DNA from: Desulfobacteraceae bacterium
GTDB lineage: Bacteria > Desulfobacterota > Desulfobacteria > Desulfobacterales > Desulfosalsimonadaceae
Direction: 5' to 3'
NCBI GenBank assembly: GCA_014237465.1
Contig: JABZFM010000021.1
Span: forward strand, 1-64,000
Length of the DNA: 64,000 nucleotides
Made by a program: the position numbers and the translations under genes. Below are positions 39,551 to 44,222 of the stretch, one piece after another; position 1 is the stretch's first letter, and every line of letters begins with the position of its first letter. Below the pieces are notes generated by a model. That model had not been told where the DNA came from. It did no database searches and saw only the letters and a list, made by a program, of their open reading frames with translations.

Positions 39551-41446
39551 TTATTTGGACAGTTCGGGATAGATCATATTAATAAAGCAACTGCTGCCGC
39601 CTGATCCAGAGTCTTTTTCTTGAGGTTTCGGTTCCGTAGTAAATTGCCACGAAAAGGTTTCGAATGGTTCGGATTCAGATAGATCCTCATCGCCGGAGTA
39701 GGAGATTGATGCTAAATATGAGGTTCCATATTCTATTTGTTCATCAGGATTAAGTATTTCAAAAATTGCCGTGGCAATATATGCCGTATTACTAAATCGA
39801 TTTGATTCCAGAAAAGATTCGCCCTCAATGGTTTCATTTTGAGACTCAGTAATCATCTTTTCAAGTTTGAATGAATCGATTTGGATTCGGGAGGAGTCGA
39901 TGTCTGGAGAAAAATTAATTTTAACTTGTGAGGTGTCAATACTCACATAAATACTGTTAACAACCGGAAATGTCGAAATTACATCAGAAATTGTTATATC
40001 CGATGCCATACCATTATGATCGGGCGCCTTGTGAAACATAGGCCATGAACTTTCTGCAAGATTCATATTCCCAGGATTGACGGCATAAACATTGTTATCC
40101 CTTGAACCAAAATAGATAGTCCCGTTAGAATCAATAACAGGTGAGGAGTCTAAAATGGGGTCACCGGTTAAAAATGCCCAGTCCTCTCTATCCTCATCTT
40201 CAATTTCAGATGATTGAAGTCCATAGAACGCTCCGTTTTTACATCCCACATATATAACACCGTTTGAGCCTACAGCCGGAGAGGAATTGATATCAGCAAG
40301 CGGATTCGTGGTTATAGACCAATTTACTTTTCCACCTGGATAAAGGGCATAAAACCTACCATCCCAGGAACCCACATAAATTATACCATCAGGACCAATG
40401 GCCGGAGATGAATAGAATCCGGTGCCGCCATTAAATTCCCATAATTTTGTACCATCGACATTAATACTGTAAAATTTGAAATCATATGTATCAGAATCTC
40501 CAGTTCGGCATTCTCCCACATAAATTTGACCGGTTGAAGAAACGGCAGGTGACCCATAAATTTCAGCATCGGCTTTAAATTTCCATTTCAAATTAAGGTT
40601 GTCAGCTGCCAAAGCATATAGATGGTTATCTAAAGATCCGATATAAACAACATCTTCAATTCCATCATTCCCGATAACAGGGGAAGAAACAATTTTGCCT
40701 TCGGTTGGAAATGTTTTGGCTATTACGCCACTTCTAGTAATTTTATAAAGGTTGTTGTTGCTGGCGCCCACATAAATGCTGCTGCCATCGGCACTGATCG
40801 CGGGAGACGAAAAAATATAGTCATCAATATTTAGCGCCCATTTCAAGGCGCCGTTTAATGTTAAAGCATACAGGCGATTGTCTAAGGACCCAAAATATAT
40901 TGCATTCGGTCCAATGGCCGGCGATGATCGAATTGCATCTCCGGTTGTAAATCGCCAGATTTCTTCTCCGGTATCCGGATTGATAGCGTACATATTCCCA
41001 TCGTCAGAGCCCACGTAAACAGTGCCATCAGGTCCTATAGCCGGAGAACAGTCAATGTCTCCGCTGGTTTCAAATTTCCATTTTGCAACAATTATATTTC
41101 TAGATTTTGACTGGCTCACTTGCCCCATCTCTGATTTAACTACATCGCATATCGGTTTAAAAAATCCATCCTGATAAGTATGTGTAAATGTATGAGAATA
41201 ATTACTCGATTCTACTGTTTCCTCTTCGCTGCCATCCCCAAAATTTATGGTATAGGAGGCAGGCACACTGGTTTTGAGGTCTACCACGCAATTCAGTTCT
41301 ACCACTAATGGTGCTATCCCGGATGACGGATTCGGATAGATTGCAACAGAAGCAGATTGAACAGTATCAGCCGTGAAAATATATAAAGTGAAGAGAAATA
41401 ATTGACAAATTAAAGCCGGATTCAATCGTTTAAATGGGTTAACCAT
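39551..41446 (-). CDS. Secreted PKD plus PQQ-type beta-propeller protein
   Basis: A signal peptide (to about residue 31) precedes a PKD-like domain (SSGIAPLVVELNCVVD, INFGDGSEEETVE). Residues 120-475 form seven or eight PQQ/BamB-like blades with the repeated pattern SSPAIGPDGTIYVGSDDGNMYA (for example DCSPAIGPDGTVYVGSDDGN). An Ig-like SbsA-type domain follows. The C-terminus ends GSGGSSCFINMIYPELSK, recalling the G-rich CFI tails found on many secreted proteins of this group, which may be a processing or anchoring signal. It is divergent from the next gene. It probably works on the surface as a binding scaffold; no enzyme motif is seen. Confidence 0.8.
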   Translation of the reverse strand: MVNPFKRLNPALICQLFLFTLYIFTADTVQSASVAIYPNPSSGIAPLVVELNCVVDLKTSVPASYTINFGDGSEEETVESSNYSHTFTHTYQDGFFKPICDVVKSEMGQVSQSKSRNIIVAKWKFETSGDIDCSPAIGPDGTVYVGSDDGNMYAINPDTGEEIWRFTTGDAIRSSPAIGPNAIYFGSLDNRLYALTLNGALKWALNIDDYIFSSPAISADGSSIYVGASNNNLYKITRSGVIAKTFPTEGKIVSSPVIGNDGIEDVVYIGSLDNHLYALAADNLNLKWKFKADAEIYGSPAVSSTGQIYVGECRTGDSDTYDFKFYSINVDGTKLWEFNGGTGFYSSPAIGPDGIIYVGSWDGRFYALYPGGKVNWSITTNPLADINSSPAVGSNGVIYVGCKNGAFYGLQSSEIEDEDREDWAFLTGDPILDSSPVIDSNGTIYFGSRDNNVYAVNPGNMNLAESSWPMFHKAPDHNGMASDITISDVISTFPVVNSIYVSIDTSQVKINFSPDIDSSRIQIDSFKLEKMITESQNETIEGESFLESNRFSNTAYIATAIFEILNPDEQIEYGTSYLASISYSGDEDLSESEPFETFSWQFTTEPKPQEKDSGSGGSSCFINMIYPELSK

Positions 41447-41609: not shown

Positions 41610-41639
41610 TTGACAATGAACAGGGGGATTGTTTATTAT
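41610..41639 (+). promoter_or_regulatory. Sigma70 promoter
   Basis: TTGACA (41610-41615), an exact -35 consensus, and TATTAT (41634-41639), with an 18-base spacer. Transcription would start near 41646, about 53 bases before the ATG at 41699. This supports expression of the signal-peptide-bearing frame. The remainder of the divergent gap (41447-41609) is AT-rich and must also hold the promoter of the beta-propeller gene. Confidence 0.75.
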
Positions 41640-41698
41640 TTAAAATTCATTGAGTTTGGATTTTTTCAATCATTTCAGACAAGGAGAACATAATTATA

Positions 41699-44137
41699 AT
41701 GCAACAAGATGTCAAACGTTTAGATTTCGGATTTTTGTTTATTATTTCTTTTTTAATTATTACATCATTATTTTTTATGTCTCCGGTAACTGCGGACGGG
41801 GGGTGATGCCCCTCTCCAGTGCTGACCGTGAATGTCAGCCCCGCAGGAAGTGGTTCGATTACAAGTCCTTCATTTAGTGTTCCGGTAGAAACTTCTGCAA
41901 GTTTTTCAGGCAGCAGATCGTATGAACTGACAGCAGTTCCCAATACAGCTGTCGGGTATAGATTTTACCAGTGGGGCGGCAGCGTAACCGGAAGTACAAA
42001 TCCAATTACTGTAAATGTGGATGTGGGAAAGACAGTCACAGCTTATTTTGTCTTAAAAGTACAACCCATATCTCTTATAGGGGCATATAATTCAAAAGCG
42101 CTTGTTGTTGATGTAAGTTCTTCAACTGACTATGAAAACAGTCATATGCTATGTGCGAAGAATTATGCATGGAATCCATCGCAGCAAAAATTTGACACAT
42201 CTCTTTCCGGATTAAACCAATTTAATGATGACGATGTCCTGATTTATGACCAGAATGGAACCATGAGTAATGATGCCGCTGATTATTTAGCCGATCAGGG
42301 CTTTTTTAATTCTGTTTTTTATATGACGGATGGTTTGAATGATTGGATTGCCGAAGGTTATGAAACATTCGCGACAGCAGAGGATGCTGATGTTTGTACA
42401 AGCCTTGCACCAATGGCAGATGCAGGCTCTGATAAAACAGTAAATGAAAATATTACAATTGCTTTGAATGGGTGGGGGCTTGATCCGGATGGGGGCCCAG
42501 TGACTTATTTGTGGACACAGGTCCAGGGCCCGGATGTTACCTTGTCTAATACTTCCATGGATCAACCGATATTTACGTCGCCGACTTTAAATGGAAATGA
42601 TGCGTTAATTTTTCATCTGACGGTAACTGATGATGAAGGAGATAAAGACACTGACAGTGTGACTGTCAATGTAAACTGGAATAATACACCACCCTCGGCA
42701 AATGCAGGCCCGGATCAATTGGTTGCCTTTGGCACGGTGGTCACCCTCAATGGATCCGGTTCAACGGATCCGGAAAACGCGATTGCGTCTTATAGCTGGC
42801 GATTTAAGGGGGGGACGTTAAACACTTCATTATTGAATGCTTCAACAGTTTCCCCGTCTTTTACTGCGCCCAGTAAAGCCGGTTTTGTTTTCTATGAATT
42901 GACGGTGACGGATAGTGGCGGTTTGTCAGGAACGGATATGGTGCGAATTGATGTTCAGGCAGGTGCCAATAATCCGCCCACAGCAGACGCGGGAAGTAAT
43001 CAGTCAGTCACGGAAGGCGCTACCATCACCCTGGATGGATCCGGTTCAACGGATTCCGACGGAACCATTGCCAGTCGGCAGTGGACACAGACAACCGGGC
43101 CGGGCGTGGTATTATCTAACAAGTTTGCGGTTAAGCCGACGTTTACCGCTCCGAATGTCACCGTGTCAACCGCATTAACCTTTTCCCTGACTGTAACAGA
43201 CAATGACGGGGCCACAGATGCGGATACCGTCACTGTCACGGTAAACGACTCCGGCGGAACCCAGGTTGATCCGCCACCAGCGCCGACCGGTGTTGCCGCC
43301 ACGGACAATACGCCTTTCAATAAGATCCAGGTGACCTGGAAAGCTGCATCAGGCGCCGATTCATATGATATCTATCGCTCGGATATGCCGGCGTGGGCCG
43401 GAGCAAGTCCCGCAAGGATCGCATCATCTGAGGCCGGGCTTTCCTATGATGATATCACTGCGGTGGCCGGCAGCCGTTATTATTACTGGGTCAAAGCCAG
43501 AAATTCCGGGGGAGTCAGTAAATTCAGTAATTTTGATACCGGATACCGGGGGGCTGTGGGATCCATACCTTCGGTGCCTACGGGTGTTGACGCGGATGAT
43601 GGGGGGACCGGAAGTGTCACCGTCACATGGATCGCTTCGTCCGGTACCCTGGTATATGAAGTATACCGGGCAGATATTCCGGCGTATCTGGATTTTAACC
43701 TTACAAAGATAGCCACGGTGACGGATACATTGTATGATGATACTGCTGCAGTGGAAGGAAATCGTTATTATTACTGGGTAAAGGCCCGGAATTCCTGGGG
43801 TATCAGTAGATACAGCAAGTTTGATACCGGATATATCGGAACCGCGTCCTCACCACCGGCTGCTCCTCTGGGGGTAACGGCTACCGACGGGACGGTGTCT
43901 GGCAAGGTATCAATTTCCTGGGAGGCATCGGCCGGAGCGGTAGGTTATGAGATATGGCGCGCCACCAAGCTGGTCTCTGCCGACGGCAAGCCGGTCAGGG
44001 TCGGTTACTTGTCCGGAACCTCATTTGATGACACAACCGGAACCTGTGGCACACCACCCTATTATTACTGGGTCAAGGCCAGGCATTCCTGGGGTTCCAG
44101 CGGGTATAGCGTTTACGATACAGGATTTTGTGATTAG
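41699..44137 (+). CDS. Secreted PKD/FN3 protein with in-frame UGA (candidate selenoprotein)
   Basis: The frame starts at ATG 41699 behind AAGGAG, encodes a signal peptide (LDFGFLFIISFLIITSLFFM, then SPVTA) and meets TGA at codon 36 (41804-41806), followed by Cys and 776 more residues in the same frame. Translating through gives ADGG-U-CPSPVLTV. Domains: a bacterial-repeat Ig-like domain (residues 40-120), a rhodanese-like domain (about 122-200; VVDVSSSTDYENSH, VLIYDQNGTMSNDAADYL, where the catalytic Cys is Asp), three PKD domains (about 205-490) and three FN3 domains (about 500-810; each with YYYWVKARNS). A SECIS-like hairpin follows the UGA. A lone GTG at 41819 could restart translation but would lack a signal peptide, unlikely for PKD/FN3 domains. 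Alternatives are a nonsense mutation or a base-call error. Confidence 0.65.
41804..41839 (+). promoter_or_regulatory. In-frame UGA with SECIS-like hairpin
   Basis: UGA (41804-41806) is followed after 14 bases by a perfect 6-base-pair stem GCUGAC/GUCAGC (41821-41826 and 41834-41839) with a 7-base loop CGUGAAU. The loop starts 21 bases after the UGA and has G as its second base. Spacing and the G near the loop start agree with the relaxed consensus for bacterial selenocysteine insertion elements. A 6-base stem can arise by chance, so the call is provisional. Confidence 0.45.
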
Positions 44138-44187: not shown

Positions 44188-44222
44188 TCCTGACAGGCTG
44201 CCTTCCTGTCAGGATTTTTTTT
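44188..44222 (+). terminator. Rho-independent terminator
   Basis: Stem TCCTGACAGG (44188-44197) and CCTGTCAGGA (44205-44214) with a 7-base loop, then eight T (44215-44222). It stands 50 bases after the stop of the PKD/FN3 gene and isolates it from the glycosyltransferase cluster. Confidence 0.92.

Follow-up and report, generated by a model that had tools for sequence, protein, structure and literature searches.

Bacterial selenoproteins such as formate dehydrogenase and SelD carry selenocysteine (Sec) at an in-frame UGA that is followed by a small hairpin, the bSECIS. In the available part of PMC13188914, this element is delimited by a loop of 3–9 nt, a stem of 4–16 bp, a distance of 16–37 nt from the UGA to the loop, a G among the first two loop bases and an MFE ≤ -7.5. 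According to the same part of that paper, most characterized bacterial selenoproteins are Trx-like redox proteins, and the prokaryotic catalogue (its Table 1) comprises 119 families and subfamilies. The gene described here lies in a 64-kb stretch of DNA that was analysed as a whole (hereafter the window). It shares with the known bSECIS selenoproteins an in-frame UGA, a small hairpin loop with an early G within 16–37 nt downstream, and the presence of selA, selB, selC and selD in the genome, but differs from them in that Sec would sit close to the N-terminal end of a mature surface-type protein, for which one Cys homologue was found. The U-G-x-P motif of its family resembles UGxP of CoA-disulfide reductase and UxGP of HesB-like proteins, as given in the available part of PMC13188914, in letters only. 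Rhodanese-like selenoproteins (forms 1–5, including NF041203 and TsoB, NF045694) also combine Sec with a rhodanese-like domain; in contrast, Sec in the window protein precedes by about 85–95 residues a rhodanese-like domain whose loop carries Asp, and the protein scored 14.2 bits against a cut-off of 115 with NF041203 and 12 against 805 with NF045694. The domain behind Sec matches the divergent InlB B-repeat PF18998 (Flg_new_2), from which the family differs in that the Sec-less copies found here are internal repeats, besides one protein with a signal peptide (G165). Finally, 14 of 29 complete family members end in CFI or CFV (by pattern), like the CFI-box putative sorting motif (NF041763), and three of ten scanned (L067, L089 and L091) have a choice-of-anchor U domain (NF041766) over its cut-off, whereas the window protein has neither: no Gly-rich CFI motif was found at its C-terminus, which ends DTGFCD. 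The sole NF041763 match, in L014, is under its cut-off, and a literature search on the CFI box found nothing.

The gene begins at an ATG at position 41699 of the plus strand, reaches a TGA at codon 36 (41804–41806) and continues in the same frame for 776 sense codons up to a TAG stop codon (44135–44137), exactly as the preliminary description had stated. The promoter-like sequence TTGACA-18-TATTAT (41610–41639, plus strand), the ribosome-binding-like AAGGAG (41681–41686, plus strand, 12 nt upstream of the ATG) and the signal peptide that it had pointed out were all recovered. The first of these is a consensus match only (11 of 12 positions), and 14 such sites occur in the window against 7.1 in shuffles. 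The signal peptide, covering codons 1–35 (41699–41803), was judged by eye from a hydrophobic N-terminus to which the N-termini of relatives are similar. A likely transcription terminator, an inverted repeat between T runs (44188–44214), lies 3′ of the gene; it is listed for the minus strand, and a plus-strand T run is visible. Six same-frame stop-split reading frames were found by scanning the window, two of them with TGA; the other TGA-split frame (minus strand, 34692) has an ATG 16 codons past its TGA and looks ordinary. The Sec gene adjoins a divergent gene on the minus strand (39551–41446) for an exported protein whose CFI-box-like end is SGGSSCFINMIYPELSK.

Judged from comparative sequence evidence, this gene very probably encodes a selenoprotein. 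To the explanation as a whole, that of an exported selenoprotein built on a Sec-tail-plus-domain module and belonging to an undescribed family, we assign a probability of about 93%. Selenium would be inserted when SelB, directed by the hairpin 14 nt past the UGA, brings Sec-tRNA(Sec) to codon 36; the signal peptide would be cut just ahead of Sec, and the mature protein, presumably located at the cell surface, would begin with a short flexible Sec tail (...DGG-U-C-P...). Behind this tail would come an InlB-B-repeat-like beta domain, a rhodanese-like domain devoid of catalytic Cys, and PKD and FN3 domains, and in the family as a whole the Sec-tail-plus-domain module would be joined to varied surface modules. 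The sequence features that point to this reading are the conservation of the UGA, the hairpin with its covariation, the Sec machinery, the Cys homologue and the domain architecture.

Relatives were collected by a starting search with the downstream protein as query (60 relatives, 44 loci fetched). Upstream translation at the N-terminal matches on these loci revealed a TGA in each case that included the region; the match in L013 is interrupted by the contig end. A first count gave 32 modules from 16 genomes and four families of one order, and re-examination of the codons upstream of 115 distinct domain matches returned the same 32 plus one in G725, a genome of another order. The fetched loci hold 33 distinct N-terminal modules with a stop at the Sec site, spanning 17 genomes, five families, two orders and one phylum, and because this stop is TGA in all 33, never TAA or TAG, the observation goes beyond chance. 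A profile of 16 N-termini was also run over 389 genomes of the order. Among the matches listed, those that span the Sec column contain exactly one TGA each, save G144:C9:15781 and G165. The former is a natural homologue that has Cys (TGT) in place of Sec and a TGA paralogue in tandem; the latter has the same repeat domain after a signal-peptide-like start, with no residue at the Sec place. This tandem Cys paralogue, on locus L084 (2213–3232, G144:C9), has a CFI-box-like C-terminus and an N-terminal domain without other Cys. Homologues aligned at codon 36, a comparison that the preliminary description had proposed, have TGA or in one case Cys, and no orthologous N-terminus with another sense codon was found. 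Two proteins bear on the refuting condition of the preliminary description without being such N-termini: G165, and the G725 protein (L122 / L153, G725:C81), which repeats the domain in tandem, with Gly (GGA) in the second copy where TGA would be expected and with the hairpin pairs present.

Several copies per genome occur in some cases, and the window's genome contains three modules. FN3 repeats 60–68% identical to the C-terminal part of the window protein were seen at contig ends in the same genome (L036, L037, L038 and L044, on G000 contigs C34, C66, C7 and C9); assembly may therefore have fragmented additional family members there. Scanning named genomes turned up 17 loci, four of them with modules (L099, L100, L101 and L103), all from Desulfobacteraceae or Desulfobacterales metagenome-assembled genomes; among the other loci, L102 ends at a contig edge, and no TGA module was found in the remainder. 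No further module-bearing genome emerged when the families of G144 and G194 (3 and 9 genomes, respectively) were searched. The phylum search (395 genomes), which shows stops only within a match, listed such an internal TGA for the window's genome alone, and the G725 module emerged from the upstream codons. Since upstream codons were covered on the fetched loci only and the profile matches are partly listed, the family is probably larger than counted. Open reading frames around seven loci revealed no common partner beyond apparent synteny.

The hairpin GCTGAC/CGTGAAT/GTCAGC (41821–41839, plus strand) starts after a gap of 14 bases from the TGA. Its 7-nt loop, 6-bp stem, G as second loop base and 20 nt between UGA and loop all lie within the bSECIS limits quoted above from the available part of PMC13188914, in agreement with the bacterial SECIS type claimed for it beforehand. 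The folding energy is -7.8 kcal/mol over 27 nt, likewise within the limits, and -7.0 for the 20-nt hairpin alone; a 47-nt fold is not unusual (z = -1.34), being equalled or surpassed by 18 of 200 shuffles. Taken from the window sequence alone, the hairpin is suggestive only. A hairpin-only search of the window's genome with ≤2 mismatches performed poorly: it returned nine matches, of which three are real, and the reversed-pattern control returned six. The Rfam scan here gave only three matches, all chance-level.

Comparison across the family was decisive. The hairpin core, which the Leu-Thr-Val-x-Val-Ser codons specify, has its five pairs complete in all 33 modules (the 32 and that of G725). 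Among Sec-less segments, this holds for 2 of 45 under a loose comparison and for none of the 13 that strictly match LTVx[VI]xP. The exception is the Sec-less second repeat of G725, a tandem duplicate that retains all five pairs. Covariation was assessed on an ungapped alignment of 22 columns and 32 rows (24 distinct), with six pairs including the outermost one. Paired cells amount to 98.6% in this alignment, and to at most 54.2% when it is slid. Two-sided changes occur at three of the six pairs, outermost included (five cells), most tellingly in the G016 row (TTTGAC...GTCAAA); two pairs are invariant and the outermost is broken in two rows. The covariation score was reached by none of 500 shuffles and the count of further pair types by 178 of 500, in a test that related sequences can beat without any structure. 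The distance from UGA to loop varies from 17 to 26 nt across the family, the stem moving with inserted codons. In addition, the hairpin codons are nearly frozen (GTG in 32/32, CTG in 31/32, ACC for 28/28 Thr and GTC for 31/31 Val), while the same codons make up 30–45% of their synonymous sets further along the same genes; the logarithms printed for this effect presuppose an independence that related genes violate.

The genome of the window (5.09 Mb, 70 contigs) encodes the four components of the Sec machinery that the preliminary description had wished to see, all over curated cut-offs: tRNA-Sec (selC, 75.1 bits against 47), SelB (369 against 242.25), SelD (362.2 against 125) and SelA (531.4 against 22.8). 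Its selD gene itself contains one in-frame TGA (L118, G000:C63:107176–108096). Among the 16 module-bearing genomes tested, a set without G725, tRNA-Sec was found in 15, the remaining one (G009) being 76% complete. As tRNA-Sec is present in 297 of 389 genomes of the order, the machinery is necessary and little discriminating.

By eye, the signal-peptide-like N-terminus extends up to Sec or to a few residues short of it, and 29 of 32 modules have Ala or Gly immediately before Sec. A cleavage site placed in this way would put Sec among the first few residues of the mature protein. This position just behind the signal peptide, after Gly or Ala, is also that of a lipobox Cys, and Sec could then be the lipidated residue of a seleno-lipoprotein anchored through its N-terminus. 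The lipobox consensus has Leu, Val or Ile at -3 from the modified residue. In the modules this place is occupied by Leu in 2 of 32, never by Val or Ile, and by charged residues in 11 of 32 (Asp in the window protein); moreover, the CFI-like ends and choice-of-anchor U domains of other members suggest another mode of anchoring. Lipidation of Sec is hence disfavoured by the residue at -3, and we consider it improbable. At the C-terminus of L089 (G194:C1), the CFV motif comes before a hydrophobic stretch and basic residues, an arrangement that resembles a three-part sorting signal.

Downstream of the flexible Sec tail of an exported protein, the preferred reading, the N-terminal beta domain (41807–42057, plus strand) is InlB B-repeat-like, as indicated by PF18998 in relatives and by an AlphaFold model; a scan of the window protein itself for PF18998 gave no match. 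Among ten relatives scanned, seven have a PF18998 match behind Sec at E ≤ 0.001, five of them over the Pfam cut-off. It is followed on the plus strand by a rhodanese-like domain (PF00581, 42095–42352), recognized by domain match, fold search and model, by three stretches of PKD-type domains (PF22352 and PF18911, 42407–43243) and by a fibronectin type III region in two stretches (PF00041, 43280–44134), in which the penultimate residue is Cys. The exported PKD/FN3/rhodanese-like protein described earlier was borne out for all three domain types, except that the rhodanese loop has Asp (IYDQNG) and no catalytic Cys. The other modules vary among members and include rhodanese, PKD, FN3, a MopE-type metal-binding motif and SdrD_B. 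AlphaFold, run on seven sequences, predicted a confident beta domain and then a rhodanese-like fold (mean pLDDT 81.4, pTM 0.64); the first four residues, Sec among them, have a pLDDT below 50, so that no contact of the tail can be read from the model. With Foldseek, the best solved match was a rhodanese, with one hit at E ≤ 0.001, and only the rhodanese part was confidently recognized; by sequence, the solved structures included nothing usefully related to the Sec domain (best E 0.0087).

The loss of the rhodanese nucleophile raises the idea that Sec cooperates with this domain and replaces the missing residue. At the loop position that we take to hold the catalytic Cys of rhodaneses, a pattern that favoured Asp loops and missed Cys-bearing ones found Asp in eleven proteins, the window protein included; three more (L035, L040, L095) likewise have Asp, and L029 (a minus-strand gene) has Gly. 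However, L067, L091 and two of the four L089 domains retain the canonical Cys, and no rhodanese match accompanies the Sec module in L054, L068, L085, L094 and L098. With the module found apart from any rhodanese and some members keeping the rhodanese Cys, a partnership of this kind is quite unlikely. The Asp-loop rhodanese-like domains (window 42095–42352 and relatives) have a Cys elsewhere (SHMLCAKNY), and distant members keep the loop Cys.

The residues following the UGA speak to whether the codon is translated at all. Were UGA a true stop, a leader peptide would be made, translation would restart downstream, for example at GTG 41819, and the hairpin would serve re-initiation or regulation. 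A GTG-started frame does exist at 41819, but its product would be without a signal peptide. Past the UGA, Gly comes first in 23 of 32 modules, with GGC, GGT, GGG and GGA all used, U-G-x-P is found in 18 of 32, and third codon positions are variable. Such conservation at the protein level right after the UGA, with free third bases, is expected from in-frame translation and not from a later restart. The exclusive use of TGA, the Cys homologue that reads through the site and a hairpin geometry that matches bSECIS argue in the same direction, and a restart, disfavoured above all by the conservation directly past the UGA, appears very unlikely. The TGA lies directly behind a run of six G, yet it is shared by 32 further modules and the 776-codon frame beyond it is intact, so that a pseudogene or a sequencing error in this run is hardly credible, as the preliminary description had argued for an indel.

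The translated selenoprotein may use a Cys near Sec as Se-S partner, as the sequences suggest. Such a Cys is located 21–42 residues past Sec in 26 of 32 modules. The window protein has none in this interval and carries one at +1, the sole such case among the 32, and the first Cys is found at +3 in G016 and at +67 to +88 in four others. The U-C pair claimed for the mature N-terminus is accordingly present in the window protein and peculiar to it, the Cys of its relatives standing mostly at +21–42. All 32 modules have a Cys at most 95 residues past Sec; the 33rd, the G725 domain, has none, and the Cys homologue of G144 has no second Cys in that domain. A strict Sec-Cys pair is weakened because the position of the partner is not fixed, the G725 domain lacks it and the Cys homologue has no second Cys. 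As to function, we tentatively propose that an exposed selenol might pair reversibly, through a selenenylsulfide bond, with a Cys in the same domain, which in the window protein would be the adjacent one, or in a partner, and would thereby serve extracellular thiol exchange or redox sensing. A more doubtful possibility is that Sec is a non-catalytic chemical handle for cell-surface building, a selenol tail on varied surface proteins that would attach covalently to other components of the surface, for example by Se-S bonding with the Cys of CFI-box proteins or by an acyl transfer at the N-terminal Sec that resembles native chemical ligation.

The product had been put forward as undescribed, and the searches agree. 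No family of such architecture was found among the 119 entries of Table 1 in the available part of PMC13188914, and no selenoprotein model of NCBIfam 20 was over cut-off in the 19 of 33 members scanned; the plain rhodanese model NF001195 was over cut-off in L089. In a literature search by title and start of abstract, whose scope lay outside most subscription papers and preprints, none of the papers listed describes the family. According to the available part of PMC12013277, deep-Sep may miss selenoproteins lacking Cys homologues, which fits a family with one Cys homologue found. Within the literature and catalogue searched, we could not find this Sec-tail surface family described, and genes of this kind are probably annotated as truncated. 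The finding would add to bacteria a multi-copy family of surface-type selenoproteins with Sec near the mature N-terminus, ahead of a beta domain. If Sec did act as a chemical handle in surface building, selenocysteine would have a role beyond redox enzymes. In either case, the family raises the question of why an anaerobe would spend selenium on a surface stalk.
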